This document shows positions 27,227-53,226 of a DNA stretch of 64,000 nt, piece after piece. Below the pieces are notes generated by a model, which worked only from the letters and a program-made list of their open reading frames with translations, did not search any database and was not told where the DNA came from. Source of the DNA: Hanleya hanleyi (taxonomy: Eukaryota > Mollusca > Polyplacophora > Lepidopleurida > Hanleyidae); NCBI GenBank assembly GCA_036873755.1, contig JAVTVY010047934.1:1-64000 (forward strand), read 5' to 3'. Numbering within the stretch: position 1 is the first letter of the stretch; each line of letters begins with the position of its first letter. The position numbers and the translations under genes are program-made.

Positions 27227-27282
27227 TATGGTGGCCGAGAGGGGCCATCGTCACTTCGCCATCGTGCCATAGGGCGATAGAG

Positions 27283-27667
27283 CGATAGAGCGATGGCGAT
27301 AGAGCGATAGAGCGATGGCGATAGAGCGATAGAGCGATAGAGCGATAGAGCGATGGCGATAGAGCGATAGAGCGATGGCGATAGAGCGATAGAGCGATGG
27401 CGATAGAGCGATAGAGCGATAGAGCGATGGCGATAGAGCGATAGAGCGATGGCGATAGAGCGATGGCGATAGAGCGATAGAGCGATAGAGCGATGGCGAT
27501 AGAGCGATGGCGATAGAGCGATAGAGCGATGGCGATAGAGCGATAGAGCGATGGCGATAGAGCGATAGAGCGATGGCGATAGAGCGATAGAGCGATGGCG
27601 ATAGAGCGATGGCGATAGAGCGATAGAGCGATGGCGATAGAGCGATAGAGCGATGGCGATAGAGCGA
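27283..27667 (+). repeat. Subterminal minisatellite CGATAGAG/CGATGG, left
   Basis: An irregular array of CGATAGAG (8 bp) and CGATGG (6 bp), mostly two or three of the former then one of the latter (a roughly 22-bp superunit). The 150-176-aa reading frames across it ('SLYRHRSIAL...') exist only because the repeat has no stop in any minus frame; they are not genes. It could be transposase binding sites. Confidence 0.92.
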
Positions 27668-27757
27668 AGTACATGACTGCGCATGACTACACCAAAACGA
27701 GACGAGTCGCCATTTTGCCTTTGTGTGCACGGTGTTTTGTTGCTGCCAGTTATTCAG
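27668..27757 (+). promoter_or_regulatory. TIR-embedded promoter and leader exon of the transposase gene
   Basis: Between the minisatellite and the consensus-like donor TTATTCAG|GTAATT at 27757/27758 lies 'cgagtcgccattttgcc', whose reverse complement carries a YY1-like AAAATGGCGAC. The next acceptor is at 28047-28048, 21 bp before the ATG. The identical block in the other TIR serves the opposite gene. No TATA box is seen; start site not determined. Confidence 0.55.
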
Positions 27758-28069
27758 GTAATTTGACTTGATCTGGGTCAATTATAGTGGTATGAAACAC
27801 GCCACGCTTTTACTATAAATATATAATCTGACGTTATAAGTTTAGGCGATGTGACTAGCCCACAATCCGTCACTTTTGCAAAGACACGGACATCGAATCG
27901 AAGCAAGGGGAATGTCAGTAGAACGGTAACCATTGTTACAATAGGGAGAGCTAAGAATACACTCGGTCTTTAAAGCTTTGAAAATTACTATAAAGGCTTA
28001 GAAATATCCAATATATTAATCTAAAGGTATCGTTTTATCTATTTACAGAAAAGCCTCAACCACTGTACT

Positions 28070-31000
28070 ATGTCCAGGCTCATGCACACGCGTATTTCTA
28101 ATCCTGGGGATGTGACAGAAGAAGAAAGTGAGCATTATCTATTGTAAAATTTCCGTGCAATAATTCAACTGTACTAACTCAGCTAGATTTATGTTATCAT
28201 TACATTTTTGCATTGAATTCCATAATAGTATTACTGTATTATCTAACAAATGAATTTTACATATGAATTATAGGTGTTAATGTTATGCGACAGTATGTTG
28301 ACGCTGGGTACACAAACAAGGAAATATCTGCAGTATTGTGTCATAACCATAATATGTGCATGAGGTGAGCTATATTTCTCTTTGCTATTGTAAGTTTTGA
28401 AATGTTTATTCAACATATGGATTTAAATTTGAAATTAGAATTCACAGAGCACAAATTGTTCAGTATTCATGGGCGTCGCTAGGATTTTTCAAGGGGGGGG
28501 GGGGTCGATTATCATACCACTTTAGGCGAGGGTCCAGGGGCCGCCTAGGCCCCGGAAGCTCCGGGGTCCTAGATGGCCGGAGATGCGTTCTAAGCGTTTT
28601 CCCGGAATTAAATCTGAACATAATGTATGCAGACTTAGGGTTATATTATACAGCTCTGAGACCTTAGGTGGCCTGAGATGCATTCTGAGTGATTTCCAAC
28701 AGTTAAACTAACACATCATTTGTCAAATATCAGTGTTATATTTTATTCTCTTATCTTGAAAACACAATAATAATGCTTTGGACCGATATATCTCGTAGGC
28801 TAACCCAGTGGCGTCTGAACGTAATTGAAAGTGGAGGGCCCACTATCACAGCCCAACAGGCGGGGGTCCAGGGGCCGCCTAGGCCCCGGAAGCTCCGAAG
28901 TCCTATAGATTGCCGGAGATGCGTTCTGAACGCTTTTTCGGAAATAAAACTGATCATACTGCATGCACATTTATGATTCTATTTTCACGATTTATGATTC
29001 TATTTTCACGCAATTATAAGCATGCATCGATATTGAAAAAAATCGCACCTCATGTCTGCATTCATTTGACGTTCTAGGTATATTTATAACTTTCAAAACG
29101 ATGACGTTTAGTTCTTGGGAGGGAAACCAATATGCCTACCGATACGATTCATTCACACAAAGATAAAACAAGAAAATCCTCACAACCCAACAGGCGAGGG
29201 TCCACGGGCCGCTTAGGCCCGGAAGCTCCGAAGTTCCAGATCTCCAGAGATGCGTTCTAAGCGTTTTCCCAGAAATAAATTCGAACATAATGTATGCAGA
29301 TTTATGGTTCTATTTTCACGTATGTTTCGCATTTTTAAGCACATATCGATATTGAAAAAATCATACTTCATGCCTGAATCCATTTGACTTTCTAGTTATA
29401 TTTAACACATGAAAAAAAACATATAAAAAACGGCCATCATGGAACATTATAGAACCAATATGATAGCGATTCATTCACACAAAGCTAAGCGATCCTGACA
29501 GGCGAGGGTCCAGGGGCCGCCTAGGTCCCGGAAGCCCCGGAGTCTCCGGTTGCCGGAGATGCGTTTTTCGCGTTTTCCTGAAACAAATCTGAACACAATG
29601 TAGTTCTTTTTTCACATCTGTTTCGCATAAACCCGCATCGATATTGAAGAATATGCCGGACTCCATTTGACTTCCTGAGGTGGAGTCTCATGAACAGAGA
29701 TACAGCTCTTTCATAATCCACTTTATGACCATCATGAGCGCCAAAGCGTATATTCATGAGCGCCAAAGCGGAAATTCATGAGCGCCAAAGCGAAAAGTCG
29801 CGGTGAACCCATTGTTGAGCGAACTGACGCGTCACTACTGGAACGAAGCATGCTTACGTTTCTGGAGACGGACTTGTAACATTTGTTATTTCTTTCTTTT
29901 CCCTTTTGTTTGTTTTGTTTTCGTTTTCTGTTTTTAGCTTTTTCTTCTTCTTTTTTTGGCGCGTCCAAGGGGGGGGGTCGTTCGCACCTGACGACCCCCC
30001 CCCCCTAGCGACGCCCCTGGTATTTGGTGGTTCACAAGAATGGTTCTTTGATTGCGTTTGTTCGCTTTGAACGTGGGATATTCTTTTCTATTTGATCTGT
30101 CCTCCAGTACCCGAACGTTAAAGAGAAGACTTCGCCAACATAGGATACGTCGAAGTAGGCACACAGATATGGATGACAGAATAATTGAAGCAATCCAGGT
30201 AAATAGCTGTTCTGTAGGATTTGTTACTAGAATTATGTACTTGTCCATCATATCGACAAGGGAAGACATCCAGGAATGTCCAAATGACCGAGAGCCTGTA
30301 TGCATTGTGCTCTTTATGCAACATGTAAGCTGCTAGCTAACTTAGGAAGTCTTTTCAATATTGCAACACTCTTACACATATTATGATTATTTTCAAGCTT
30401 GAATGAAATAAACTGTTTCATTACAGCAAGAACTGCGTGGTAGTGGTTCGTGCCTGGGCTATCGAGGGATGACTGCTCGCTTAAGAACTTCGTACGGCAT
30501 TAAAGTAACAAGGTAGGTCTTCAAGGGTATGGGGGGAGGGGTGATGAAATGAAAGTGATAAAGACGTTCCAGAATAAATGAAGACATGTCCAAGGAGGAA
30601 TGAGTTTTTGAATTGAATAATGTGTTTTCCAAATTTTGAGGCGACACGACCTAAAGGAAGAATCGCTGAAAAACTGAGGGTAATTTGGCCTCATGAACAT
30701 GGTTTTTCATTTTGCCATCCTACTGTCTTTTAGAGAAGCCTGATAACCCCTCATTTTTATTAGATTTTCTCATTCAGCAAAGTTCCAGAATATTACTGAA
30801 GCATTTGGGAGAAATAGCATTTTAACATCTTAGAAAATATTTCTATCCAATCCCATATATTATAGTAGGATTAAACAACTATAGTACACCATATGAATGC
30901 CTATATTATGCAAAATGAAGCCTGGTCGCCCCTGAATGTTATGCTTTATTTTCAGTGTTGAACGTTTGTTCCGCATCTTCTTAAAATATAAGAAAAAATG

Positions 31001-34000
31001 ACTTTTTATTTTCAAATTGTCTGGAACCTCCTTAAGTGTGTCTTATCACCACAAAGTATCAAAATAACTAAGTACAAAATATTACATAAGTGTCTGTTTT
31101 GTGCAGAGATACAGTGATGTTCCTTTTAAAGGAACTGGATCCTGATCGATCGTCTAGCCGGCGTCATGCAAGATTTACCAGAAGAAATTATCACAGCAAA
31201 GGCCCAAACTATCTGGTGCACTTAGATGGCTATGACAAGCTCAAACCATACGGGTTTGCCATCCATGGTGCTATCTGTGGGTAAGTTTTCCTTTCTTGCA
31301 ACGTAATTTCATCAGCGTTTAATGATTGCCACTTTAGAAACTGCCATTTCATAATAAAAATCATCTAAGATTCTCAAGCCTATTCACGAGATGGCGTGAT
31401 CGAGAAAAGGTATCAACAAAGACGGGATCATGTATGTTTCAACTATTGCATAATATTTCACAAATAAGTGTATTGTTATGTAGATAAAAGCGTGAAAACT
31501 AAAAAAAAAAATACTAAAAATAGCATGCAGTTTTGGTACTGATTTATTATTTTGCTTTTGACTTAGAGCGTAAATCTATGAATTGAAGTTGCTATTTATA
31601 CAAATGTAGATTCTCAAGAAGAATTTTATGGCTAAAAGTTGGGCGGACGAACAACGACCCATATGTTGTCGCTGATTACTTCATGGATTTCATCGAAGAG
31701 ATAGGAGGTATGTAAAGCCTAGCACACTCGAATGATTATTGTTGCTGGTAACAGGATATTTTGTTGCTTACGACAAAATATTCTCGAGAATTCCTCTCGC
31801 GGATAACAGAACAATATTTATTGACGCCGGCAATAGGATGCAAATATTCCGTATAGTTAATATTTCAGATATAAAAACCATGATTCCAGAAGCGCCCATG
31901 TGCGGGCAATGCGGATTTCTGGAACCTGCTGCTGGCCGCGTCGGTCAATCACGACAGATCTTTTCTAAGAATTATTATCCGGAGATGCTTTTTGGTGTGT
32001 GGCCAAGGGCGTCAAGGTGTGTATTCGTCTGTATTCGTTGCCATGTTCTTCTTGTTCGTTGATATGGACACCATGTCTAACATTACCCGACCCGGTGGAA
32101 AGGGGGAGGGGGGTTACTTTCCGCTCCCTCTACTAAACTTTTTCAGGATGCTCGATAACGGCAAAACAGGACAGCAGGGGTACAGACTACTTTTGTTCTC
32201 CATTAATTAATCCTTTATCTATCCAGGTGTTCCTCGTTGTCTTCGTATGGATCGTGGGACAGAGAATGTCTTCATTGAAGACATCCAGAAGGCTTTTCGC
32301 TGGGACGACACAGACGAAATGGCTGGCGAGAAAAGTGTTGTTTTGGGGAGTTCGATGAGAAACCAGGTTGGTGATATTACACAATATCTTCAAATGTTTT
32401 GCCAAATTGAGATGACGTAATTCCAGGTCTGTGATAATGACAGAAATTCCCTTTCACAAGCAAGCTAAATGTTGATAAACACATTTCAAAACACTTTTAA
32501 CATATCTCCAGACCAAATTCGTCATAGTCCTTTCAGACAAAGCCCTAATAATATAATATATGTGAATATTACTATTGCCGAGTCCTGGTTGAGAAGTTAA
32601 GCGTTATGTTCGGCGTCTTGAATTTACTGTGGACGATGCGATTGAGAAGCATAGCGCGTTTCTCAAGAAAAAGGGTGTTCCCTAACCAACCACAGAAACG
32701 GACATACCAAAACTCAACATGCATAAGACACCATATAGGCCAGATTTACAGCTGGTCCTAAAACTTGCAAATCCAAACTCAAATCTATGTATTTTGTTAA
32801 CAAAAGCACTGCAGGACGTTAAAGCTTCTTGGGGAACGATACTGTGCAGCCATTTCGAAAAACTCTAACTTAGGATGAATGCGGATATGGAAAAAAATGT
32901 CTTTCGGATGAACTGGATAATATGGGCCACATGCCGTATAAACAAGTATCCACATGGGATTTCTCGACCTAAGTTACTGGATATGGCGTTAACCATGAAA
33001 GTGTGTTGCTTCATGTAAACTAACGCGTTTCATCGTTAACAAGACATGCTATTTCTATGGTGGCCGATAAGGGACATCGCTAGGTATGTGGTTTGGTAAC
33101 ACGAAGGCAGAATGCGAAGCGCGAAGGCAGGATGCGAAGCGCGAAGTCCAAACACGAAGGCAGGATGCGAAGTGCAAAGGCAGGATGCGAAGTGCGAAGG
33201 AAGGATGCGAAGCGCGAAGGCAGGATGCGAAGCGCGAAGTCCAAACACGACTTCGCGCTTCGCATCCTGCCTTCGTGTTTGAACTTCGCGCTTCGCATCC
33301 TGCATTCGCGCTTCGCATCCTGTCTTCGTGTTTGAACTTCGCGCTTCGCATCCTGCCTTCGCGCTTCGCATCCTGCCTTCGTGTTTGGACTTCGCGCTTC
33401 GCATCCTGCCTTCGTGTTACCAAACCACATACCTGAAACAATACAGCGATGTCCCTTATCGGCCATCATATATTTCAGCTGTATAAGGTAGAGAATATGA
33501 CAGTTTCCATTTGTTGAAGTTGTATATGTTTAGATAACTGTAACAATCAAAGTTTCATGTTTATTTTTTGCGTTTGATGTGTTCAACATTTCAGAGAATA
33601 GAGCGCTGGTGGTTGACCTTGAGACAGAGCGGTGGAGATTTTTGGATAAACCTCTTTAAGGATTTGGAATCACAAGGGCTGTTGGAGACAGATAACCTTA
33701 TTCACAAGTAAGAAATAACTGCATGATGATCTTCTAGTCTTGATTTCGCTTCTATGTCGCAACGTATAGGATCATCCAGGTCACCTTTCTCCGCTCTGAT
33801 GACCGACAGGGGACATCGCTGTATTGTGTTATGAATTGGATGTGAAGTCAGGATGCGAAGGACGAAGGCAGGATGCGAAGCGCGAAGTCAGGATGCGAAG
33901 TACGAAATCAGGATGCGAAGCGCGAAGTCAGGATGCGAAGGAAGAAGCCAGGATGCGAAGCACGAAGTCAATATGCGAATGCAGAATGCGAAGGACGAAT

Positions 34001-37000
34001 GCAGAATGCGAAGCACAATGCAAAGACTGGAAGCGAAGCGCGAAGTCAGGATGCGAAGGCAGAATGCGAAGCATGAAATCACCGAACCTGCCTTCGCGTC
34101 CTGACTCCGCGCTTCGCATCCTGGCTTCACACTTCGCAGCCTGACTTTGCATCCTGAGTTCGCGCTTCGCATCCTGCCTTCGTCATTCGCATCCTGCCTT
34201 CGCATCATGACTTCGCGCTTCGCATCTGCCTTCGTCCTTCGCATTCTTTTTCCTGGCTGTTTTTTCTTCTCTTTACTTCTTTTATACCCTCGATCTCTCC
34301 CGCACTTTCATCCCTTGCACATTTCACCGTCTTTCGCCGCTCTACCAGAATGGACCCCAGCTTCGGTAGGCTTGTAGTAGAAGGCGAGTGATGTAGCATT
34401 GTTGTGGTGTTGCCGAAATATTCAGAGCAACATTAAAACTATACTGTCTTCACTGTCAGAAGAATATGATACAGACGTGACCGTTGGAAATTAATCAAGC
34501 AGAACCCTGCGACCATATAAATGCTTGTCAGGTTGACCATATTCTTCTGGCAGTATTATATAGCGATTCATCCTACCACGTCGAATTTGATAGTTTTTAT
34601 AGACGCTTTGTGGGATTTAAGAATTGGTAGGGTTGGCGCAGATACATAGCAGTTAATTATTCAACGCTCCTATTTGTCGCTCCGATCTGAGAGCTGTAGA
34701 AGTGCTTGTCCAGTATTTGAGAGTTTCACTCCGGAATTTGAAGCTGTAGTCAAAGATACATACGCATCGTTTGTATTACCACTGATAAATTATTCAAAAC
34801 ATTATTATAAATTCTTGTTGTTCAGCGTGTATAAACATTATACAAGTAACATTTGTAGAATGAAATGGCAGGATGGTTATATTTGTTAAGTGCGATATAA
34901 ATCAAAACTCCAGATCACAGAAATGTTGTAATCTATTACAGGGAATGCGTAAGGTTCTGTTTTACTGAACTGATTCAAGCAGAACTTGACCAGATTGCCA
35001 GTGAGTGGAACCAGCATCGTTTATGTACAAGGAGTCACTCTGATGGCAGGGTATATGGAAAACCAGATGTCCTTTTTCACCTACCACATCTCTATGGTAA
35101 GGGCTCTGGTGAAGCTAACCTAGCCAGTCCATGACTGTATAATTGAGTCTACCATAGCTTCGAGGTGGGTGTCAGGGTTGAGGCTGGTTTGCAGCTGATA
35201 CTATATTCCATATGGTCAACTTAATTCCATCGGTATTAATTTTTTACATAATTATCAAGTTGAACGAAGATTTTTAACATCAATCAAAAAGTGCCATTTC
35301 CTTCATGAATGACCGCGGTCGGGTACCTCAGTGATAGATTCTCCGCCTGGGCGCAGTAGGCCGGGGTTCGAATCCCGGTCTGGTCATATCGAAGACTTTA
35401 AAAATTGTAGTTACTGCTTCTTCGCTTGGCATTCTGCAATAAGGCATAGTCGCAACACAACGAAAAAAGACAGATTCTCTTCCTGATATACCGTGGCGCC
35501 TGGCCTCGTTTTGTCCTGAAACCAGGGCAATGTCACAGCGACTGAGCAACTGGCGATGCGAACCAAATTTATCCGCACTGACGTTCAGCGATGGAGTCTT
35601 GCCCGTTCAAAAGAAAAAACAAGGTCACCCGGCTCAAGTGAGCCACGGTATGTTAGGAAGAGTATCGGCATTGTTTTCCAGAATATGGTAGGATTCTGCT
35701 GGTGGACTGTTAGTCCCCGAGACACTCCATCTGTAACTAGTCTCGACAATGTTTACCCCATGTTGAAGCGTTTACTCTATCAGACGTCCACGATGCTCAT
35801 CCATTAACATCAGATGAGTTGTTTGAGCTGATCTGTCATCACAGCTCCCGATCTAGTGTATCTAATTCCGCTTAAGCCGGTGCTAGGGGCCGTGTGGATA
35901 CTTCATAGTATCCACATGAACATCTGCAATAAAAGTGCGGCTGAGATACTGAGGCTACGTCCGAGAATCCAGGTGTCGAATTCTTTCCTGTAGAATGATA
36001 TTGTTGCTCTTTAGTCGCCAGACGTCGTCAATTTTTCCCACCTCTTGCATATCGCTCCAATTTACAGTGGCGTTTTGCGACTATGGCATTAACCCTACCT
36101 GGCTTGGGGGGACCCCCGTTGTTGTTTTTTTTCTCCTATCTCTGGAACGAGAAAAAAATTGAGAGACAACTCCATGACTTTTTAGAATATCATATTAAGG
36201 TTAATTTCAGCCTATTGGCATGACCCTCCGAGCAGAGGATCATGAGCAAATTCAAAATGGCGACCATGTGGGGTAGAAAGAAAAGTGATGTTTTCGTCAG
36301 ATTTTTTCCTTTTGTTTTTATTTTCTGGATGGAAAAGTGGGTAAAACATATGTTATTTCATATCAGGTTATTATTTACTAAATTATCACGCAGTTAAGGG
36401 GGCAGAGAAACGACTGGTGTCAGGATAATGTGACCCTTGTCTACTGCCTGGTACCTCGGTGTGTAACAACACTTTCAAATGCATCATCTGGACTGCCATG
36501 TCGCAAGAAGTGGCCGTCGATATATGCCTGAATACCTTTGAAAGCGACGTTGAGCTCATCTTCCCTAACCAAGTCGACTGAATCACAATGTTTCCTACGC
36601 CGCCTTGGCGTACTTCGCTAGTGAAGTTCAAACGCCGACACTGATGAATGGAATGCCGCTGGCCATAGCTGCAGCGGTACCGATCTACTGGCGCGTGATA
36701 GGCCAACGTGGGGAAAAATGGGATATATGTTCTCGGCTATCTGTTCCAACCGGTGATCAAGATTTCTCTAAGTGCACACGACTGCCTTTATTATCAGCTT
36801 ATTTCTGTGTGGAATACACTGAATATATTGTATGTGGCGTATTCCTTTATATTGCCCTAGATATCATATGGTGCCTCAGCTAAACTAATATCGAATTGCA
36901 GTAACCGGGACTACATGCAGGTCTACCTCGTTTGCCCGGAGATGCATCAAGTTCATATTCAAGTCTGTCATTTTACATAACACCGACGGCTTAATTTGAA

Positions 37001-37431
37001 AATGAAGGAGAGAAACGCTGGTTGAATAACTCACACAAAATATAGACTCCCGCCAGGTGGCGTGGTGAAAAACTCGCATTACACTAGCGAAATACAATAA
37101 GGTGACGTAGAGAACATCAAGTATATAGTCGACCTGGTTAGCGAAGATGCGTTGGACCCTACATCTGTCACTGTTACGTTGCTGTAATTTCGTTTGATGT
37201 TGTCAATGAACAGGTGCTGTCGATTACAAATTCGGAGTGGACTCTGGCGATATTTGGCAAATTAAGCTCATGTGCAAGGGTTCTCGAGCTTCTGGATGCG
37301 AGCAGGACTTTGAACACCTTTGCCTAACGACGCTCAGAGAGAACGGCAAGACCAAACCAACGTCAGTGGACGGGGCCATAGATCTGTATGGCTGGCTGAA
37401 TGGAAAACTTCGGCAAAATGATACAACGTAA
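28070..37431 (+). CDS. DDE (rve-fold) integrase-type transposase, 407 aa, 10 coding exons
   Basis: Coding exons: 28070-28127, 28274-28364, 30108-30198, 30427-30512, 31107-31280, 31610-31707, 32227-32366, 33595-33707, 34942-35096, 37214-37431. All introns are GT-AG. Lengths sum to 1224 nt and every junction keeps phase, giving 407 aa and TAA. Residues about 20-65 form a helix-turn-helix-like region ('YVDAGYTNKEISAVL', then 'TLKRRLRQHRIRR'). The integrase core carries Asp149 (HLDGYDK), Asp208 (RMDRGTEN) and Glu249 (NQRIE), a D-x58-D-x40-E triad. The C-terminal part has 'WNQHRL' and 'GRVYGKPDVLF', common in this family of animal integrase-core proteins. It should cut and join transposon ends in the nucleus. 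A leader exon lies in the left TIR (donor 27757/27758). Introns hold nested elements at 28468-30019, 33056-33470 and 35313-36600. Confidence 0.88.
28468..30019. mobile_element. 1.55-kb non-autonomous element in transposase intron (5-bp duplication GTATT)
   Basis: Terminal inverted repeats CATGGGCGTCGCTAGG... and ...CCTAGCGACGCCCCTG, with G/C homopolymer tracts just inside. GTATT flanks both sides (28463-28467, 30020-30024). Inside are four tandem units beginning 'ggcg[a/g]gggtccaggggccgcctagg' at about 28525, 28858, 29189 and 29497 (period about 310-330 bp). No transposase; the superfamily is uncertain. Confidence 0.7.
33056..33470. mobile_element. 415-bp non-autonomous relative of the 26-kb transposon
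   Basis: It starts TATGGTGGCCGATAAGGGAC and ends with the inverse ('...CCCTTATCGGCCATCATA'), sharing the terminal 12 bp with the large element. It is flanked by a 6-bp duplication TATTTC (33050-33055, 33471-33476). The interior is a near palindrome of 'gaagcgcgaaggcaggatgc' words. It lies in the intron between transposase exons 7 and 8. The 116-129-aa frames here are repeat artefacts. Confidence 0.85.
33797..34245. repeat. Second, decayed relative of the 415-bp element
   Basis: The left end 'gaccgacaggggacatcgctg' resembles the MITE terminus, and 'gaagcgcgaagtcaggatgc' words fill the interior in both directions. No matching right end is found, so it is truncated or rearranged. It lies in the intron between transposase exons 8 and 9. 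Confidence 0.6.
35313..35570 (+). repeat. tRNA-derived SINE
   Basis: The head has a Pol III A-box-like TACCTCAGTGATAG (35324) and a canonical B box GGTTCGAATCC (35365-35375). A SINE body follows ('actgcttcttcgcttggcattctgcaataaggc'). It is not a working tRNA because the acceptor stem does not pair well. It lies in the last intron of the transposase gene. Confidence 0.6.
35690..36060 (-). repeat. Dispersed repeat family R, copy 1
   Basis: The same sequence recurs inverted at 54545-54900 and 55330-55720. Landmarks: 'tctaattccgcttaagccggtgctaggggcc', 'atccacatgaaca', 'gctgagatactgaggct'. No coding sense. Confidence 0.65.
36064..36400 (+). repeat. Dispersed repeat family, copy C
   Basis: Matches copies A and B ('attaaccctacctgg', 'gaggatcatgagcaaattcaaaatggcgacc', 'gatgttttcgtcagat', 'tatttcatatcaggttattatttac'). 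It is followed to about 36600 by a SINE-like tail ending '..cctttgaaagcgacgttgagc'. Confidence 0.65.
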
Positions 37432-37454: not shown

Positions 37455-38062
37455 CAGAAAGGACTTTGATCACCTTTGCCTAATTACTCTTAGATAGAGC
37501 GGTAGAACCTACCCACAACTGTTCCTATCAATAATACCTTCATTGATCTCCGTGTGCTATAACCCGTACCGTATAAAAGTTCATTTTGATGCTCCTTACC
37601 TGTTATTTTCGGGAAGCTAATTCCTTCTTTTCCACGCTTGTCGCTTTTATTAAAGTTTTCGGCGCTGCTGATCAGCCGTACAAGAGCCGTTTTCACATCG
37701 AACCTAACTTTCCCCGTGTTACGGTAGACGTCATATTGTCTACCTGCGCATGCGTAGTGGCCCAAATACACGCAATATGGCGTCTACCGTAACATGGGGA
37801 AAGTCAGGGTGGATGTGAAAACGGCTCTTGTACAGCTGATCAGCAGCGCCGGAAACTTTAATAAAAGCGACAAGCGTGGAAAAGAAGGAATTAGCTTCCC
37901 GAAAATAACAGGAAAGGAGCATCAAAATGAACTTTATACGGTACGGGTTATAGCACACGGAGATCAATGAACGCCATGTGTGACTATCATCCGAAGGTAT
38001 TATTGAAAGGAACAGTTGTGGCTAGGTAAAACCAAACCAACGACGGTGGAAGGCGCCATAGT
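37455..38062 (+). repeat. Partial duplicate of the last transposase exon, split by a foldback element
   Basis: 37458-37489 ('ggactttgatcacctttgcctaa') copies part of exon 37214-37431, and 38031-38062 ('accaaaccaacgacggtgg') copies the next part. Between them sits a near-perfect palindrome (37495-38030, arms about 230 bp, centre about 37760) pairing 'acaactgttcctatcaataa' with its complement. The palindrome evidently inserted into a duplicated exon piece. Confidence 0.7.
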
Positions 38063-40170: not shown

Positions 40171-43100
40171 TTACTCGCTGGTGAACAGTTGGAAACTGAT
40201 TGCGGCAGTCATGTTCTTCTTAAACAGCTCGTAGTCTGTGATAACAGGGATATCTATACTGTTTGCACAAGTATTTCCGAAAGGAAAGTTTTCTCGATCC
40301 TCTTCTCCTTTGTCCTGTAGATGATGGAATCTCAGTACCGGTTCTGGGTTGAAACCAAGTGGTGGAATAGAATCTGCACCGGTGGCAAAGATGAGCATTT
40401 TCTGGAGTGTGGTATCCTCAGTTCCGTCTGCAGGACAAAATACACAACTTTCAGACTTTCGAATGAGTTAAAATTTTAACGTGAAAGTTAATCCTGACTG
40501 ATAATCCCACACCCCACTACAGCAAGCCGCCAGACGCATGTGGCTATTCGTTATGTCTAAGTCATGAACTCCACTTTCTCCTTCGAAATTCGTTACTCTG
40601 AGAATGACGACATCAACAAGAACGAAACACGATATGTTGATTGGCCCATGTCGGCTATTTGAAATTGACGGAGTTGACGTCCATGACTTGGACGAAGGAT
40701 CACACATGAGCTTTCACAATAATTCCCCAAAACAACATAATGATATAAGATCTGAAACCGATATAATCTGTATTATATCTGTATCTGTATTTCCTGTCCA
40801 AATCCATTACCTGAAAATCTAACTTCTTTTCTTCTAACAATCTTTTGATTGGTCCATGGAGACCACCATGGAGAATTTTACCGAAAATAGAATTTCGAGA
40901 AACCTTGAACCATCGATAAAGCAACCAAGTTTCGCGTAAATCGGTTCAGTGGTTCCTCTGCAGAAAAGCTAGGACTGTTTAATTAATAGAAAATTTGGAC
41001 AAAAAATGAAAAGAATAACTTGCGTTTGGGAAATGATAAACATGGACAGACAGGGATGGCCTAATGAACCATGTTCATAAAGCGTACTTAAATGAATTTC
41101 ACACAATTTCCTAATAGATCTGTATGTTTTATAGTGGTACTATAACATAACCTTCAATGTCGAGTAGATAATCCCTCCAGTTAGTCATGGTAACCTCTTC
41201 TCGCCTTCTCCGGTTACTTCCGGGCTCGGAAAATTCGGCCACAAAGAGGTTGTCTATCACGGCCGAAGTGAGTCGACGATCACCGATGAAACAAAGAAGC
41301 TCTTTCATTGCCTCTTTGGATTCTCTAATGGCCGATAGGACACCGAGCACAGCTAGTCCATCGCAAAATCTAAACATGAAACAAATCGTTAACATTTATA
41401 ATTCTGATGACATCCACTGCAACAGCTTTCATTTTTTTTGGGTGAAATTCATTTTCATGTTTGCTATACCTTTGTGGTCATGCATGAACAAAAACAATCT
41501 TTAATCAGATAAAGATAGCCCCCTATATTTTGTCATATACAATATCCAAAACTGATGTATACAGACATGACTTTTATGGCTATAGATTGCTAAATGGTTA
41601 AATTATTTGTGGGGGTCGTTGTGAGGTGTGTTGTTGGTCAGTTGGTGACTAGTAGATCCGTTATGGATCCGTTGTGGTGCTCAGTAGACCCATTGTAGGT
41701 CAATTCTGATCAGTTGTGTGTCCGTTTCGGTGATTAGGCCCATTGTGGGTCCATTCTGGTCAGTTGTGAGTCCGTTGTGGTCATTAGTAGACCCATTGTG
41801 GGTCCATTCTGGTCAGTTGTGGGTCCGTTGTGGTGATTAGTAGATCCGTTATGGATCCGTTGTGGTGATTAGTAGACCCATTGTGAGTCCATTCTGGTCA
41901 GATGTGAGTCCGTTGTGGTGATTAGTAGATCCGTTGTCGTGATTAGTACACCCATTGTGGGTCCATTCTGGTCAGTTGTGAGTCCGTTGTGGTGATTGGT
42001 AGATCCGTTGTGGTGATTAGTAGACCCATTGTGAGTCCATTCTGGTCAGATGTGAGTCCGTTGTGGTGATTAGTAGACCCATTGTGAGTCCATTCTGGTC
42101 AGATGTGAGTCCGTTGTGGTGATTAGTAGATCCGTTGTGGTGATTAGTACACCCATTGTGGGTCCATTCTGGTCAGTTGTGAGTCCGTTGTGGTGATTGG
42201 TAGATCCGTTGTGGTGATTAGTAGACCCATTGTGAGTCCATTCTGGTCAGATGTGAGTCCGTTGTGGTGATTAGTAGACCCATTGTGAGTCCATTCTGGT
42301 CAGATGTGAGTCCGTTGTGGTGATTAGTAGATCCATTCTGATCAGTTGTGGGTCCATTGTGGTGATTAGTAGAACCGTTGTGGTCCGTCGTGCATCCGTT
42401 GTGATGATTAGTATATGTACACTTGGGTGTTTAGTAGGACCCCTTATCAGTTCATTTCAATTCATGCTACCGTGAACTTACTGATCAAAACATTCCTTCA
42501 CACGTCCGATAACGAGGAAATGGACCAGAGCAGCCACAAGCGAGTCTTTTTTCCTTACATCTATTGTCAAATGGTAGCAACCTGCGACCTCTATTAGGGT
42601 TTCCGCCTCTTCGACAGCTTTGTCGAAGGATGGAGCATCCAAAGCATCGGCAACCTGTACAATAACCCGTGGCGGGGGACAAAGATTATGTGAAAAATCA
42701 AAGACATACAACGTTTGGCTGTATTGAAAAGGCAGTTTTGTGAATGAATGGCAGTATTGAAAAGGCAGTTTTGTGAATGAATGGCAGTATTTTGATCTAT
42801 GCATAGAAGTGATTGAAGTATTTGATAACTGTTTTGTAAAGTGGTTTGACTCACATCGACATGTTATTTTTGCCTTTGCTTTCTGTACATTTGCTTTGTT
42901 TACCTTCTGGACTTTGTTTCTGTGGCTATGATCTGCAATGTGGTCAATCTCCGGATGTAAATTTTCAATCCCATCAGCCAGGGCTCTGTACATCAGAGGA
43001 CTTAAAAATTGTGGCAACGGGCCCTGGTGAACAATGGAATAAGCCATCATTTTACCTACGGTAGCATATGATCCGGTCTGCAGAGCTGAAACATATACAA

Positions 43101-46100
43101 CATTTAAATATAAGGTATTTTGAGTGTGATGCAGCTTTTCACAGCCAATACGTACTCTTACCCCCGACACCCACCCCATCTCACCCCTTCCACTTCACTA
43201 AATGTTAGCCTTCTATGGTGATAGGATTGAATGTTATCGCATTATACGTGGAGTTGAAGATTGGCGCAAACCACAGAAAGTGCAAAATCGCAATCTTGAT
43301 GCGACAGTGGGCATCGTTCCCCAGGAACCGTTTTCGAGAACCAGGTCGAGTTTTCGAAACTATTTTTTTTTCTAAATATTAATGAAATAGAGCAAAACCG
43401 AATATTACTAAATAAAATTGCACTTTCGGAGACAATAATGCTATTAAATTGTTTTTCACTTAAAAGCGAGAAAAGCTGTAACCTTCTACATTTCTGAATG
43501 CGGTGCATGCATATGGCAAGCCGTTTCGGTATTTAATCGGTTATTTCATATATGTGGAAAAGTTCTTCACATATTTAAAATAAATTAACTATTTTTATTC
43601 TTGTGTAAAAGAATTTTGCATGTTTATAAAACTTTTCAACATATGTATACAACTTTTCAACATATGTATAAAACTTTTTAACATTAGTGTAATAAATACG
43701 CACTTTTGTACATATTTTGAAATATTTTTGACATATGTGCAAAAATGTTCAACATATTTGGAATAACCGATTAAATACCGAAACGACTTTCCATATGCAT
43801 GCACCGCATTCAGAAATGCGTTACAAAGTTTGATAGTAAGTCATAAGGTCACCTTCTCTACCTCTCTCGACCTCCCTCCCCCCTCCCCACCCCCACCCCC
43901 ACCGATCCAGGTGCTAAAGAATGAGCAGTTTTAATTGGATATTGACCAAACGGCTGGAATGAATTTGACAGTTGGTTATGCGAAGTACAAAGAATAAACT
44001 ACGACGGCTTATAAGTTCGCTACACAGCCATCTTGCCCTCCACTAGGAGCCATGATAGATTTTAATTTAATCTGACTGCCATCTTTGCCATCTTCGTACA
44101 CCAATTCAATTTCCACACTCGCGTTCTTCAGAACTGACTTGGTGTACGACGATGAGTGTGCCTGAGTAGTTGTAAAGCTGACCCAAGCGTATATTGAGCA
44201 CTTCATCGTCTCGGGGAGAGTTTCATACCTGTGCAGTTCAAATCGAGGAAACGCTCGTTTTCAGGACCTGTGAATATGGGCATTTTCTGAATCTGCTTCA
44301 TAAGGAGACGCAAGAATTCTCTGGTTGGACCGCCATCGTCTATGGCCACTTCCCCGCTGAACTTTACAGACAGTTGGTAATGAGGATCAAACCCCTTCCT
44401 TTGGAAACCACGAAGAGCGCCAGTAAGAACACCCTCTCTAGTCACGTTCACTATATTCTTTCGTTCTGTAACCACGCTTGCAGAGAGCCTTGTGAGGATG
44501 GCATGGACTGATTCTGGCATACTGGGAAGCACAAATTTCAACGAAAGTTATTTTCGGTGCTTTTGAAAGTCGATACAGAGGTGCACAGATACACAAAATA
44601 ATCTCGAAACAATTAATTTACATTTAATTACGATGTATAGTGGATTGACTTGGTTAAGCAATGAACCCTCTGATGGAAGATTAAGGACAAGTAATTGCAA
44701 TGAACATCTGAACAAAGACTGTACTTGTATCATCTTATGAGTAAAAGACATCGCTCCATTCTCATTATACGTGTACTTAAAAATTAGTTTGTCCTCTTCC
44801 AGTTGTCTATATCTTTCTACGGCGCCAACAGAACAGGTGCAATGGTTTTATCAAGCGAATTTCTACGTTCCCACTTCGAACTGGGAAAGTAGAAATTGGC
44901 TGGATGAAATGAAGATGCGGAATGACTAGCTGACCAAACACATGTACGGAATAACATAAAGAGAATAAATTATTTACCTGCTTGGTTGATCCATTAACGA
45001 TTGTAGAGCTTCACTCTCGGTTTCATCGTTGTCGCTGTCTGAAAGGAGCACGAACATATCTCCGGGATAGTGCTCATTGCCTGTGGTAGACATACGGTCG
45101 CCAGGGACGCCTTGTGAAGTAGATGGTACTGGTTCGCCTGTGACACCCTGTGAGGAATATGAGCTTGGCTCATCAAAGGCGCCTTGCGAAGTAGATTGGA
45201 CTGGCTCACCAGATGCACCTTGTGAGCAGGAAGGAATAGCTAACGAACGAGCACCACTTGTTCGTGGTCGTCTCTGAAAGAAAATGGTCGAGAAAGGTTT
45301 CACTTCACTTCGAAAAACACAAGCAAAGAAAACGTGAAACGATCTTCGGCGAAAAAAGTTCCTGGAGCCGAGCGAAACATTCTGCGACAGATACGGACAG
45401 GTTAAAAGCTGCTGACACACGGCGCACCTGTAGATCATAATATGATCGAGCAAAACATCAGCAAATTTGGTGAGTATTGTTTTTTCTGATATAGACCATT
45501 ACAATTTAAAGATGTTATGGCAGGACTAGGGGAAATTAATGGATATTATACAAAATATATATAGTCTGTCGAAAATTGTTGAAAAATGCATTAATTTTTC
45601 CTTGTCCTGCCACAACATGTTTAAATTTTATGAATGGTCTATATTAGAAAAACATGAATACTCACCATATTTGCTGATGTTTGCTCGATCATATTATGAT
45701 CTACAGGTGCGCCGTGTGTCAGCAGCTTTCTACCTGTCGGTATCTGTCGGCCTATCGCAGAATGCTCGAGCTCCGCTCGGCTCCAGGAACTTTTTCGTTG
45801 AAGAGCGTTTACATGTTTTCTTTTAAACATTACAAGAAAACAGCCGAAGGTACAGAAATGAGATTCATATCTTCATAGTCCTATAACATTCTAGATGAGA
45901 AATATATACATGGATTTTTATTTTATGGAGACGCTTTTAACAAAAACGATAAAAAATAAACGGGTGTGAGTATATCTAAAAAAATTCCGGCGAATTGACA
46001 GCATCGTTTTAGTTAAATATTTCGCCATGATGTAAAAGGAAATATTTTTCAACCTATATATTTTCGAAACGGCAGGTCTAATTATCCCTAAACCGAATGA

Positions 46101-49100
46101 AAATCGGATATATATACGGGCAGAGTTATGCCCGATTATAAAACAAAATGAAAATCGTATGTATATGGGCAGAGATTTGCTCGATTATACACTGATATGT
46201 GTGCAGTTTGCATTGAGTTAAGAAGTGTCAGTTCCGGGAGCAGACCCCACTTGACGTCACTAGCCAGTTCCCGCGCAAAACAGCAGGGGTTATGAAAATG
46301 GTCTATGAGTTTCGAACTAATATACTGGTGTCGTGACGATGTTAGCTTATTCGCCTTTTACGACAAGCTTGCATGAGGAACAGGGGATCTATTCTGGTTT
46401 AAACATTATTTTATTTCTTCTGAAGAGAAATTGGGGTTGGCGAACAGGCAATGCCTATATTAACGCCTCTCCCCGTACAATCAGTGACTGATTTAGTGCA
46501 AGATGACAAACGTATATACATGTACAAAAAATCAATTCTAACCTGGAATCCCCACAGAGGTGATAAATATTTAGTACACTAATAAGGAAGATAGTAAATA
46601 AGTTGCCACAATGTCTGATTACAGCATTGAACATAAAACATACATTGTATATTACCAGAATTCTGTTACAAGTTCATAGATATGACTTACAAGCGATAGG
46701 CGTGTGGACCTAACATGACTAGTGGCGTTAAAGGATATTGTTGGTGTGCCGGTGTCTGATGGCAAGTCTGGCAGTTCGTCTGTGTCAAAGTTTGCTGGGG
46801 ACAACTCTGGCTGGGACGTGCCACCCTCTAATGGAGGACTGTCTGTAGTGACAATATCTGCACGAACGTCCTGTTGTGAAACATTGCCACCCTCTGATGG
46901 AGGACTGTCTGATGTGACAATATCTGCTCGAACGTCCTGTTGTGAAACATTGTAATACGTTTAATACTTATACTGAGAATGTTCATTAATGATAAATGAC
47001 GTGGAAGCATTTAAGGATGAACACTAGATGTACCGAAAAAAAATTGTGCGAATTACATGCAAATACTCATATTCACAAGTCAATCATCAAACTTCGTTTA
47101 AACGTTTGCCTTGACATTTTTGATGCTGCCACAGTAGCTGGGTGTCTTCGTCGACGTTGTTGTTAATATATATATTTTTTTTCTTCATCAAGAATATAAT
47201 TATTTCCCATCTTTTCCTTTACCACAATGACAGTGGAGATCATAAAAATGCTTACTATACGACCTACACCGATTGTGATATATAAAAGAGTGGCAAATAA
47301 TTATATTCTTGGTGAACAAAATTATTTAAAAAATATTAACAACACTAACATCGACGAAGACACCCACTGCTAATCAAGCCACTGTGCCTCGACCTCATTA
47401 TTGTTGACATCATAATTCATGAACCAACCGGAGGGCTTGGAAGATAGGCTCCTTCCGCTTCCAATTTTTGCTCTAACGACTACATTGCTATCGCTTAATA
47501 AACACCCTCGATCGCATTTGCCCATAGTTTGACCAATTTAGCTGTGTTTAGAAGAGTGTGTCTGGTTGGTTCTACGGAACTGCAAATAAACTCGCTGGAT
47601 GATTCGTCTATTAATTCTCTCCCCCCAGAGTTTCGGTCCTGCATGACTGGATATGGCTTGTGAGGATGGAAAGTACTGTAAATCTGGCTGTTAACAGATT
47701 GGTTCAGGTTAACTAAGATTCGTCGATCGATCGGCTTGAAACCTAAAATGGCGTCGTCACACATCAAAAGCGTCGGAGTACATGTTAAAGTGTGGGGGTG
47801 GGGGTGGGGGAGGGGTGGCTGAACTCTATATCGGCCATTTTAAATGCTAGACTGGTGCTATCTAAGATAGGACTTATAACATTGCGGTTTTAAAAAGTGT
47901 GGGGGGGGAGCTGTAGCTAACGATCGTTTGTTGAAAACATATCAGCAATGTTTGTTTTTCAGAATCAATTAATGCTCAAGCACATCCACATCTGCAAAAT
48001 TAAATATCTCAGTATTTAGTATGCTGATAAGGACTGTTTGGATGATAAGATTCAGATTTTGTGAAATGATGTTTTGCGGGATATATGTAATGTATATGTA
48101 TTCAAAGCCAGATCGACTGACAGAAGGGGAGATAGCCCTGTTTGGAGGTTGACGTCGGTGGTCTCGTTTTCGCGTTTGCGCATTGCAGTCTGGACACAAG
48201 TTTGTGTTGTGTCAACACAAGTTTGTGTGTAATGGAAAATGACACAAGATTTTGTGTTGACTCACATCATAGGTTTTTTTTAAAACAAAAATATGCATTG
48301 TATCAACACAAGTTTGTGCATGGAAATAACACAGGATCTTGTGTTGACTCACAACACAAGTGTTGTCTTTTTGTAAATTAAAATGATTGGCCAGTCCAAT
48401 GATGGACATAGGTGACAGATTCTTTGAACTTCAAATCGTTTACCTGGTCTGTATTAAGTCGTGAATGAAGGTACACTCTGACTGGATACGTGGATACACC
48501 GAAGAAGAGCTCCACTGTGAAAGGTTTCCCCTGTATAGACTCCGGAAGCTGGTTTCCTTGAAAACTGGCCACATATGTCTCCAGGTCTCTCAAATTCAGC
48601 TGTTGTACTTCATTTCTGCCACCTGGGAAATACCGATGCTGTATCCTGTCCTTTAAATCAGGCAGAGACATGCTCTTGGGAACGTCATCAATCTGTTGAC
48701 CCCCGCCTCTACTTGGGTGTACCAAGCAAAACGTGTCCCTGTTCTTGCTCTTGTGTTTCCACCCTAAATAAATTCGTCTTGTCGGCTTGATACTTTTCCC
48801 ACCTCGGCTGCTATGTGCTTCAGAAGCATGCTGTTCAAGAAAACAAAATAATTCAAAGTAATATTATAATTAAAATGTATTAAATGACACGCTCTCACGC
48901 TCTTCTGCGTGCAGCTATCTAACATACATGATATATGCATATCTTGGTCAGGTCTATATCTTTGTGACGATACAGTTGACAGGTAAAGTTATATCATATT
49001 GGTCAAACCATACAAATTCAAATAATTACCCTGTTTTGTCTTTGTGAGTGCTGACAGCGAAGCCGTTTCACGACTGGAGATTCTTCCAATGCTTCATCTT

Positions 49101-50470
49101 CATAAAAAAAGATATGTAAACCACTTTTCGATTATACTCATAGAATAATTTTTGTTAACAATGTTGACATATGTATCGACTGTGCATACAACCTCCATCT
49201 CTCCATTCGTATTTTCGTTATCTCCTGGGCTATATTATACATTTCCGTCAGCTGTATCGGGTGCTGCAACAATCCAATACGGCGGACACGATGGCACCAC
49301 AATGGCCTCTTCAGTAGTATAGTGAGTGGAGTGAATACTCACTAGATATGAATACTCCAGATATGGTCAATCGCGGTGATTTGTGGGATAGCTTCAGGGA
49401 AAATAAATCAGCGATCCCATCTAGTGAAAACCCTATGGCCCTCCCCTACTGCTTCTCTGTAATACCTGAGGTCACCGGAAATGCCCTCTTACTGCAGCCA
49501 CTATCTTGGCCTGACCTTTGACCTCGGTCATCTTAAACCGGAAGTGACTTTTGACCTGTCCGCCAACTTGGACCGGAAGTGTCGCCATCTCCGTTTAACA
49601 GTTGACCTTGTGGCGTCATCCAACACTTCCGTATCTCCGCCACCACCTCCCCACGTCAATACTACACTTCCACTCACTATACTACTCTCTTCGCAAGAAG
49701 TGTTACTTTCCAGCCGACTTCGGGAAATTTCAAGAATTTATTTCAACCAGGTAGATACTCCGTTTGGTGAAGCATTGAAATGGTTTATAAATATATATTG
49801 CACGACTTCACCTACTGTGTTCAGAATACGCTTGTCTTACAATTGCCTCACTCTGAAAAAACAATTGTGTACAGAATTGCACATCTACAAATAATGTGTA
49901 TCAGAAGTACACAATTTGTGTACTTTTTCTACACAAATTGTGTATCTGAGCTACAGCGTCATTGTGGATGTTCAATCAGTTACAGCAGTGTACTTTTAAT
50001 ACACAGTTGTTTTCAAAGAGTAGTTCGCCCATACCTCCAATAAACGCTTTACATCGTTGTCTTATGGCAATACGTTGCCCAATCGTCTGGATGCCAAGTT
50101 TTGAGAACTCAGTCTCCGTTAAATTGCAAAGGAACTCTTTTGGTCCAACCTGCAAGACAAAAACCATACAGTCACTAGATGGCATAAAATATAAAGTTAC
50201 ACATATCAACCAAATATCCTATGTGAAAGAATAGAGTAAGAATGAAGAGCCAGAGATGAAAATTATTATACATTCACTGCATCACTATCTCTTGAAAAGA
50301 TTGTTTCATAACACTGAAATTGGAGAGCCATCTACAATATAAATGTAGCTTATCTGAATGGATTACTAGCTTGCAATCATTGACCTGTATTTTATGGATT
50401 ATTTTACCCCGTTTTCCCGAAAAGTCTCTTTCAAGTGGCCCAGGCCGAGGTCTTCAAGAATTTCATCCAT
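40171..50470 (-). CDS. SAM-HECT E3 ubiquitin ligase, 765 aa, 11 coding exons
   Basis: Coding exons (high to low): 50470-50408, 50149-50035, 49097-49030, 48830-48444, 46936-46691, 45273-44978, 44521-44229, 43085-42904, 42654-42482, 41369-41152, 40427-40171. They sum to 2298 nt with all phases consistent and one stop at 40173-40171. Residues about 1-58 form a SAM-like domain ('EDLGLGHLKETF', 'LTETEFSKLGI'). Residues 95-200 are a Gly-rich conserved block ('GGGQQIDDV', 'YFPGGRNEV'). Residues 212-250 hold a 22-aa tandem repeat and 310-350 four 12-aa SQG repeats. A SUMO-interaction-like VLLSDSDND lies at 368-376. HECT spans about 395-765 with Cys734 (GNTC) as catalytic residue. HECT ligases take ubiquitin on this Cys and pass it to substrates. 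It resembles G2E3-like proteins. The ATG in the SAM exon is my choice; an upstream exon may exist (see 50580-50768). Confidence 0.85.
41620..42410 (+). repeat. Minisatellite 'gttgtggtgattagtagacccattgtg' in HECT gene intron
   Basis: About 790 bp of mixed units built from 'gagtccattctggtcag', 'tgtgagtccgttgtggtgatt' and 'agtagatccgttgtgg'. A higher-order unit of roughly 170-180 bp recurs. It lies in the intron between exons 42482 and 41369. A smaller 'aaaggcagttttgtgaatgaatgg' doublet lies at 42728-42790. Confidence 0.88.
43491..43821. mobile_element. MITE-like element with about 65-bp inverted ends
   Basis: 'tttctgaatgcggtgcatgcatatgg' and 'gtttcggtatttaatcggttatt' at the left recur inverted at 43750-43821. 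The interior is AT-rich with three 'aacttttcaacatatgtata' repeats. It lies in a HECT gene intron. Confidence 0.7.
45330..45815. repeat. 480-bp foldback (palindrome) beside HECT exon 6
   Basis: 'gcgcacctgtagatcataatatgatcgagc' at 45422 pairs with its complement at 45680-45710. The arms extend outward through 'gctgctgacacacgg' and inward through 'gtggcaggaca' style sequence to a centre near 45570. Arms are about 230 bp with small indels. It lies in the intron just upstream of the exon 45273-44978, and its left arm begins near that exon's acceptor. Confidence 0.8.
46300..46480 (-). repeat. Short interspersed element fragment
   Basis: 'tcgccttttacgacaagctt' is the inverse of the 'gcttgtcgtaagaggcgact' in the repeat at 59745. 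It is a common animal short-repeat end. In a HECT gene intron. Confidence 0.4.
47135..47370. mobile_element. MITE-like palindromic element
   Basis: 'gggtgtcttcgtcgacgttgttgttaata' pairs with 'tattaacaacactaacatcgacgaagacaccc', and 'aagaatataattattt' with 'aaataattatattctt'. Arms about 80-90 bp. In a HECT gene intron. Confidence 0.7.
47495..47767 (-). other. Orphan 90-codon open frame in HECT intron
   Basis: Open for 90 codons ('DDAILGFKPIDRRILVNLNQ...'). I see no matching splice sites and no domain, and the HECT exons on each side already join in phase without it. Probably intronic chance or a fossil. Confidence 0.2.
49313..49687. mobile_element. MITE-like element with perfect 18-bp inverted ends
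   Basis: AGTAGTATAGTGAGTGGA at 49313-49330 and its exact complement at 49670-49687. The interior has 'ccggaagtg' repeats. It lies in the HECT gene intron between exons 50035 and 49097. Confidence 0.65.
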
Positions 50471-50579: not shown

Positions 50580-50768
50580 TTGGGGAGCTAAGATATATTC
50601 TGCGTCTGAAAGTTTGGTAATTTTCTCATATTTAGTTCTATAATCCAGAGCAAAAATAGTGTCCCGTCCTATCTGCCTCCATGTTATCTGACCCCCAGTT
50701 GAATTTCCGCTGGAGGCTAACAGATTAGCCAAATCTTTTGTTCTCTGTGAGACCCGTGTTCCTCTATC
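50580..50768 (-). CDS. Possible additional 5' coding exon of the HECT gene
   Basis: An acceptor 'ttaccag' ends at 50769. One frame is then open for about 60 codons ('DRGTRVSQRTKDLANLLASS', then 'GGQITWRQIGRDTIFALDYR') before a stop near 50575. The composition looks coding, but I find no donor whose phase joins it to the SAM exon at 50498. It could be an alternative 5' exon. Confidence 0.35.
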
Positions 50769-50769
50769 C

Positions 50770-52540
50770 TGGTAAAATAAACTATTATTACATAGATAAA
50801 GCTTAACTCAAGACGCATAACTACAAACTGCACACTTTACATGTTCGAGGAACTTGGCGATAAAGGCCAATTGATAGATTCTACAAGTACATATAGCAGT
50901 TATCTATGCCGTGTGAATGGGTGACGATATCGGTTAAAGGTGAAGGTTGGCGGTTAAATATGAATGTTGATCCTATTGAAATAAGAGCATCTGACTGCTA
51001 ATTGGTAGGCAAAGATGTCTGTCATGCATGTAATGCCAGATTATAATCAGCATAACTGAGCCCAGCCTCGACACTTAATACTCGCTAATAATGAAGTACT
51101 GAATATTGGTCAACAGCTTGTCTACCAGCTGGCCGCCAGCTGGCCTTTGTCATTTCAAAGAATCCCCGGATGAAAACATGAACAAGAAATCTAGCTGTTT
51201 CATCAATACGGTAGTTTTGTGGGTTCCGAACCACGGGGAGCTAAGAATCGCTTTCCTAAATGAGCGCCTGATATTTCTTGCAATAAAGCATATGTGTAAA
51301 TATTTTCTAACCTTATTCAAACGACTTTTTCTGTGAATTCAAATAAATGCCAAACAACCGACCTGCGTTGTTTGTTTCTCGGTCAATTCGGCATGGCGCT
51401 GCCTTCGGTACTACGCAATGAAAAATTTACGCTGGGTCAAAAAACGAGTGTGATTTCTTCCGTGTTAAATCTATGCGAAATAAGGTGGCTTTAAGTGGTA
51501 ATTTCAGTACATAATTCAGTGATAGAATCATATCAATTGTCAGACAAAATATCTAATGATTTGCGATATATCTTAACTCACTAGCATCTCAACATAATGC
51601 CCCAGTAGAGATGTCAACTCTGAATCAACGAAATACGCGCCGTTATTCCGTGTCATTATACGTGATCAAAAATTGAGAACAAATATCTATGTATTCTTTC
51701 TTCTATATTCTTTCAAACAGTCAAATAATAAATGGACAGATTATAGAGTTTATATATTGTAGTCTTGATGATGGGAGTAGAATTCTGCTATCCGAAACTG
51801 TACACATTGGAAACTTTGGTGTAACTTTCTTAGCAATTTTGAATCTGAATTCCATGCATTATAAGGAAGGAGTCCATATCAGGTCCCATGAGGAAACATT
51901 TTATACAGGTTTCTATTGAACTAGGTATGTTAGGTTCGATATATAATGAATCTGAGTAATAATAAAATTGTTCGAACTACCGAAATGCTGAGAGAATTAA
52001 TTTAATTGGTGGGGATATTTGCCGTATATGCAATGGTCAGACAGATTGGGCCGTCGTTGTCTAAGAATTTCGCTTATAATAGTGGCAATGCAACAACGTC
52101 CGGGTATGTTATACACCATTATTTTCCTATTGAGATATTGGCTGGTAAAAAAAAAAATAAAAAAAAATACAAAAAACCCCATTCTCAGTAGCTGTATCGA
52201 CCGCTAGATGGCATGATCCCCTTCTCACCAAAGTGCACTGAGACGAACGTCATTTTTTCATTGTTTCGACCATTTCGACCACAAATCTGCGTCGAAAATA
52301 ACACAATGAGTCACTCTCAACTCCCAACAAGACAAGCGCTAGCAGTCCAGACGTAAAAAGTGATTTGGATCTCTCCTATTAACTGTACATTGAAATTCCG
52401 ATTTCCTCGTTGGTTAATTTTCAATGCATTGAAAGAATAATTCAATGAAAACCATATGATGCAGATAGCATCATCAGTGTGGATGCGGGCAATTTCTGTC
52501 TGTCATGTTCTAGTGCATTCTTATATTTCTCTGCTTTGTC
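50770..52540. other. Long 5' intron region of the HECT gene
   Basis: No convincing coding exon between the TIR leader and 50768. It is AT-rich with small unrelated reading frames. Confidence 0.4.
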
Positions 52541-52690
52541 TCGGTGTCCGTGTCTTTGCAAAAGTGATGAATTGTCGGGTAGTCACATCACCTAAACTTA
52601 TAAAGGTAGATTATATATTCATGGTATTCTCCGCTTTTAAGCGTGGCGTGTTTCATACCAGTATAATTGACCCAGATCAAGTCAAATTAC

Positions 52691-52785
52691 CTGAATAATT
52701 GGCAGCAACAAAACACCGTGCACACAAACGTAGGCAAAATGGCGACTCGTCTCGTTTTGATGTAGTCATGCGCAGTCATGTACTT
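52691..52785 (-). promoter_or_regulatory. TIR-embedded promoter and leader exon of the HECT gene
   Basis: Inverted copy of the left leader: the minus strand reads ..AATTATTCAG|GTAATTTGAC with donor GT at 52690-52689. It contains AAAATGGCGAC (52738 region) and CGAGACGAGT. It would splice to a HECT gene exon near 50.5-50.8 kb. Confidence 0.5.
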
Positions 52786-53175
52786 CGCTCTATCGCTCTA
52801 TCGCCATCGCTCTATCGCTCTATCGCCATCGCTCTATCGCTCTATCGCCATCGCTCTATCGCTCTATCGCCATCGCTCTATCGCTCTATCGCTCTATCGC
52901 CATCGCTCTATCGCTTTATCGCCATCGCTCTATCGCTCTATCGCCATCGCTCTATCGCTCTATCGCCATCGCTCTATCGCTCTATCGCCATCGCTCTATC
53001 GCCATCGCTCTATCGCTCTATCGCTCTATCGCCATCGCTCTATCGCTCTATCGCCATCGCTCTATCGCTCTATCGCCATCGCTCTATCGCTCTATCGCCA
53101 TAGCTCTATCGCTCTATCGCCATCGCTCTATCGCTCTATCGCCATCGCTCTATCGCTCTATCGCTCCATCGCTCT
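52786..53175 (+). repeat. Subterminal minisatellite, right
   Basis: Same words as the left array, inverted (CTCTATCG / CCATCG). The long reading frames across it are artefacts. Confidence 0.92.
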
Positions 53176-53226
53176 GTTTTTTGACGTACGATGGCGCAGT
53201 GACGATGGCCCCTCTCGGCCACCATA

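Follow-up and report, generated by a model that had tools for sequence, protein, structure and literature searches.

A 26-kb IS3EU-type transposon in the mollusc Hanleya hanleyi that appears to carry a HECT ubiquitin ligase gene

The window analysed here, 64,000 nucleotides of contig JAVTVY010047934.1 from the mollusc Hanleya hanleyi (assembly GCA_036873755.1, positions 1 to 64,000), contains a DNA transposon of exactly 26,000 bp (27227-53226) with two genes on opposite strands, one for a DDE transposase and one for a HECT E3 ubiquitin ligase (Table 1). The left end, TATGGTGGCCGAGAGGGGCCATCGTCACT, begins at 27227, and its reverse complement finishes at 53226; read inward, each on its own strand, both ends are TATGGTGGCCGAGAGGGGCC, and full copies of the element would be bounded by TATGGTGGCCGA..TCGGCCACCATA. 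The termini, TATGG..CCATA, are bordered on both sides by a perfect 6-bp duplication, CTATAC. The inverted repeats can be aligned over 692 bp of the left arm and 707 bp of the right arm: the outermost 39 bases show one mismatch, the 22-bp minisatellite that follows occupies about 390 bp in each arm, and the stretch inward of it displays 18 differences in 239 compared positions. The original prediction of a 26-kb span with long inverted repeats and a 6-bp duplication is thereby confirmed to the exact coordinates. Taken alone, the 10-bp terminus lacks significance (seven matches in the window with one mismatch allowed, against 3.92 expected; at least seven in 12 of 100 shuffles), and the case for the ends therefore rests on the long match, the duplication and an unoccupied target site.

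Comparison of the window with itself reveals a pair of long direct repeats, which flank retrotransposon frames with matches to reverse-transcriptase RNase H and integrase zinc-binding domains; the element interrupts one of this pair and therefore lies in a long terminal repeat (LTR). The sister LTR corresponds to positions 27022-27226 and then to 53227-53652 and 54056-54340, reading straight through the target site with one CTATAC. The empty site, overlooked in the original prediction, is the strongest evidence for the element. Its single copy makes the ends and the duplication exact, and it shows that the DNA between the ends, later nested insertions excepted, was inserted after the LTRs arose.

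The ends, the duplication and the predicted transposase fit superfamily IS3EU, to which an rve-type transposase with a 6-bp duplication had originally been assigned. The duplication is 6 bp long both here and in a nested relative (TATTTC), the termini conform to TA..TA and TAYGG..CCRTA, the inverted repeats of about 690 bp exceed the 30 bp expected of the fungal families, and the transposase is of the IS3/IS481-like DDE kind without an HHCC zinc motif. The element shares these traits with IS3EU (with GingerRoot) and differs in its 26-kb length, in inverted repeats of this size arranged around a minisatellite and in its HECT ligase gene. Ginger1 transposons have TG..CA ends. The 6-bp duplication and TA..TA ends rule out Ginger1, for which PMC10045372 gives a duplication of 4 bp; the same paper describes TA..TA ends and usually 6-bp duplications for IS3EU, and PMC12730594 gives TAYGG..CCRTA for fungal IS3EU.

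All 10 coding exons of the transposase gene join in phase with GT/AG borders. Homologues support eight of the nine junctions, one of these less well (82 of 113), and the first junction has weak support or none (2 of 15). The predicted product is an IS3/IS481-type DDE transposase; its NCBIfam matches fall below the cut-offs of that library. The positions of H and C in residues 1-140 include no C-x2-C, and the protein therefore has no HHCC zinc motif. A profile search of the sequences of solved structures gave no match at E up to 0.1, where a fold comparison succeeded. Among the matches listed, the closest relatives are abalone (Haliotis) proteins, and in a tree of 30 rows (the window protein and 29 relatives selected from 120 listed, with no Repbase IS3EU rows) it groups with two proteins of Haliotis rubra with a support of 100/99.

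The 11 coding exons of the HECT gene likewise join in phase with GT/AG borders, so that both open frames, of 407 and 765 aa, are free of stops as originally predicted. The HECT domain is found by Pfam with E = 6.6e-14 (52.7 bits against a cut-off of 23.9), and C734 and F762 are invariant in eight aligned rows. A Phe four residues from the C-terminus has a role in HECT ligases. The gene product is a predicted HECT E3 ligase that retains the catalytic Cys and may transfer ubiquitin. G2E3 proper carries N-terminal PHD/RING-like fingers, and as an identity for this protein it fails, no such finger being matched by Pfam at E up to 1. In PHROGs the N-terminal part has two weak matches, both of unknown function, and the abalone relative P0122 has none. 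The structure predicted for P0122 is of low quality beyond its HECT domain (mean pLDDT 50.9), with an N-terminus of low confidence. The closest HECT relatives among the matches listed are again abalone proteins. Two of them, from H. rufescens, are identical at 545 of 546 aligned residues and lie on contigs of 79.7 and 94.2 Mb, which suggests dispersal unless the contigs belong to two different assemblies.

Table 1. Features of the transposon and of its insertion site (window positions)
Feature	Position	Strand	Details
Sister LTR with unoccupied target site	17955-18830	.	Single CTATAC at 18154-18159; self-comparison
Target site duplication CTATAC, left copy	27221-27226	.	Sequence comparison
Left terminal inverted repeat	27227-27918	+	Includes 22-bp minisatellite 27269-27667; arm alignment
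Possible non-coding first exon and promoter region, transposase gene	27668-27757	+	Donor CAG/GTAATT, exon end 27757; inferred from sequence
Transposase gene	28070-37431	+	10 coding exons, 407 aa; DDE = D149, D208, E249
Transposase exons 1-5	28070-28127, 28274-28364, 30108-30198, 30427-30512, 31107-31280	+	
Transposase exons 6-10	31610-31707, 32227-32366, 33595-33707, 34942-35096, 37214-37431	+	
Nested short element	33056-33470	+	Ends TATGGTGGCCGA..; 6-bp duplication TATTTC; transposase intron 7
HECT E3 ligase gene	40171-50470	-	11 coding exons, 765 aa; catalytic C734, F762 four residues from end
HECT exons 1-6	50470-50408, 50149-50035, 49097-49030, 48830-48444, 46936-46691, 45273-44978	-	
HECT exons 7-11	44521-44229, 43085-42904, 42654-42482, 41369-41152, 40427-40171	-	
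Possible non-coding first exon and promoter region, HECT gene	52691-52785	-	Same donor, exon end 52691; inferred from sequence
Right terminal inverted repeat	52520-53226	-	Includes minisatellite 52785-53175; arm alignment
Target site duplication CTATAC, right copy	53227-53232	.	Sequence comparison

The two genes appear to be tied to the ends of the element. On the inner side of the minisatellite, each inverted repeat has a near-identical stretch that ends in the splice donor CAG/GTAATT, and splice acceptors stand directly ahead of the start codon in each gene. Because the same donor occurs in both repeats, one pointing into each gene, each inverted repeat may provide one of the genes with its promoter and first exon. 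A point against this is that each stretch contains two ATGs, which would come ahead of the main start if they lie inside the exon.

It is very unlikely that the HECT gene belongs to some other mobile element or duplication nested in the transposon, of later or independent origin. The interior of the element is full of nested short repeats, as such an origin would have it, yet no inverted-repeat pair brackets the gene among the 25 longest of 57 pairs, which speaks against a nested inverted-repeat element of its own; no direct repeat of at least 60 bp within the element brackets it at E up to 1e-8, and the 10 introns of the gene model rule out a retrocopy of a host HECT gene. That an IS3EU-type unit was inserted with the ligase gene inside is, in our judgement, highly probable.

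The age of the insertion bears on why the two frames are undamaged. Over 876 compared positions the LTRs show 20 differences and four gaps, a Kimura two-parameter (K2P) distance of 0.023 (2.3%), and the insertion is therefore no older than this divergence. Under a model with an assumed transition bias of 2 and the indel rate of the LTRs, an unselected transposase gene would escape every disabling change over the full LTR age with a probability of about 0.057, and an unselected HECT gene with one of about 0.0076; for an insertion one tenth as old, the values are 0.75 and 0.61. The low probabilities at LTR age mean that either the insertion is much younger than the LTRs or the genes have been maintained intact, and the data fit both. 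The first of these would be compatible with a HECT gene that a single copy took up lately from the host, a neutral passenger of no use to the element. DNA transposons commonly capture host genes, a single copy is seen here, and intact frames need no selection in an insertion as young as this if it is much younger than its LTRs. We nevertheless consider such a passenger unlikely: an undamaged HECT frame is hardly expected at the age of the LTRs, the same splice donor in both inverted repeats points into each gene, and the nearest HECT relatives include the near-identical abalone proteins on different contigs.

Other observations weigh against the reading that we favour below. The collections scanned (viral, prokaryote and plasmid) yielded no further copy of the element. 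In H. rubra, the best transposases are located on contigs of length 818,840 and 1,130,809 and the HECT protein on one of 115,369, and no linkage is therefore shown in that species. Only the HECT junctions within the HECT domain, four of ten, have homologue support, and junctions 1-6 are supported weakly or not at all. Of the SAM-HECT label in the original prediction, the HECT part stands, and the SAM part comes down to a SAM_1 match below the Pfam cut-off (E = 0.0011, 19.7 bits against 23), with no SAM match in P0122 at E up to 1. Finally, an insertion long after LTR formation would leave the genes intact even without selection.

Set against these points are the direct observations that the element is real, structurally complete and of IS3EU type with two intact reading frames, and that the empty site in the sister LTR shows an exact insertion between these ends. 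We therefore favour, as the probable reading, a complete cut-and-paste transposon of IS3EU type that arrived later than the retrotransposon next to it and that has the HECT ligase as the regular second gene of the mobile unit.

Relatives with a genomic context were sought in viral, prokaryote and plasmid collections. Viral contigs yielded 53 pattern matches with the transposase alignment and 45 with the HECT alignment, none confirmed. Prokaryote genomes yielded 48, of which two were confirmed, on contigs of 3,865 and 3,811 bases that are too short for a second gene of HECT size, and plasmids searched with one transposase exon (31107-31280) gave no match. A contig binned to a sponge-symbiont bacterium (L002, 1985-2624) contains a transposase piece 48% identical to that of the element, which is probably sponge DNA in the bin.

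Under the favoured reading, the transposase would bind both ends, excise the 26-kb unit and insert it with a 6-bp stagger, and a promoter and first exon from each inverted repeat would allow both genes to be expressed inward and together. The ligase would be kept because it is helpful to the element. It is likely, though unproved, that the ligase serves the element, and we lean slightly towards selection acting on the element as the reason for its retention. In the version that we rank first, the N-terminal region of the ligase would recruit a nuclear host protein, such as a silencing, repair or checkpoint factor, for ubiquitylation by the HECT domain; even so, we put such a host target at well below even odds. 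The putative substrate might instead be the transposase itself, the ligase keeping it in check or taking apart its complex with DNA and not acting on the host. Joint expression from matching inverted repeats, if it occurs, would suit such a self-regulator, and cellular unfoldases remove transposase complexes elsewhere, as ClpX does with MuA. We hold this target to be improbable as well; it would overlap with the favoured reading in all but the target.

EnSpm, Ginger and KDZ transposons encode proteases of the ubiquitin or SUMO type. Like the present element they carry an enzyme of a ubiquitin-like pathway, but theirs remove modifiers, whereas the ligase here would attach ubiquitin. Animal proteins named "G2/M phase-specific E3 ubiquitin-protein ligase-like" (Haliotis, sea cucumber, acorn worm, fish) have HECT domains 35-55% identical to the one described here and share its catalytic Cys and C-terminal Phe; their N-termini differ, with a UBX domain in the fish protein P0129 and in P0125. 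Enzyme genes beside the transposase are also found in fungal IS3EU, where a TET/JBP gene lies between the transposase gene and an oppositely oriented alpha-kinase gene (PMC12730594). The plan of the present element is comparable, with the HECT ligase gene as the oppositely oriented gene; the fungal elements differ in that a dioxygenase and a kinase are the added genes, and in residing in fungi, not animals.

No paper joining HECT and IS3EU was found, and a wider literature search, judged in part without full text and with Repbase outside its scope, returned no description of a DNA transposon with a HECT ligase gene; a HECT-bearing IS3EU may already be in Repbase. For a mobile element to have a complete E3 ligase of its own does seem unusual, as had been supposed, yet IS3EU is known to carry passengers, such as the fungal TET/JBP and alpha-kinase genes (PMC12730594). 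The coelacanth paper PMC4255032 proved a false lead as a precedent, its main text containing no HECT. In a sculpin study, one of the candidate repeats left unclassified is reported to match G2E3 (PMC5638112), which fits a transposon origin of HECT expansions without proving it.

Several smaller features lie inside the element or elsewhere in the window. The nested element in transposase intron 7 consists of ~20-bp minisatellite units in inverted arrangement between ends TATGGTGGCCGATAAGGGACATCG.., and is probably a non-autonomous relative of the transposon. A decayed array of the same minisatellite type is found at 33800-34300; the sequence to its left, GACCGACAGGGGACATCGCTG, is similar to the left flank of the nested element. 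Long imperfect palindromes at 37507-38027, 39487-40122 and 45353-45795 are likely short inverted-repeat elements; site 39607 (TATGGTGGCC) was rejected as a further IS3EU end, as it sits within the longer unrelated inverted repeat 39487-40122. A Pfam scan of nine open frames in the element, two of them containing HECT exons 5 and 6, found no domain above cut-off (a STAG match in one frame had E = 0.0026), and Rfam and tRNA scans of the window gave no matches. In the occupied LTR copy, a further insertion of about 403 bp (53653-54055) has the ends CAACC..GGTTG, with AGTCTATAT (9 bp) on each side and once in the sister LTR. The gag-like frame of the adjoining LTR retrotransposon (24927-26654) has a SCAN domain match (Pfam E = 8.3e-12), and open frames at 10637-14459 with a reverse transcriptase and a weak, below-cut-off tyrosine-recombinase match possibly represent a DIRS-like retroelement.

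At this locus, a jumping gene appears to take an enzyme of cell regulation along with it. We advance only tentatively the wider idea that a HECT ligase is a permanent second gene of IS3EU elements in many animals, and that the "G2/M phase-specific E3 ligase-like" genes of molluscs, echinoderms, hemichordates and fish are mostly transposon genes and not host genes. If true, this would be a mobile lineage bringing its own ubiquitin ligase to control its host or its transposase. An animal DNA transposon travelling with a complete E3 ligase, its active site intact, would be the counterpart of fungal IS3EU with its TET/JBP and kinase genes. The element makes it testable whether transposons use ubiquitylation to overcome their hosts or to regulate transposition, and it offers a possible source for the expansions of HECT genes in aquatic animals.
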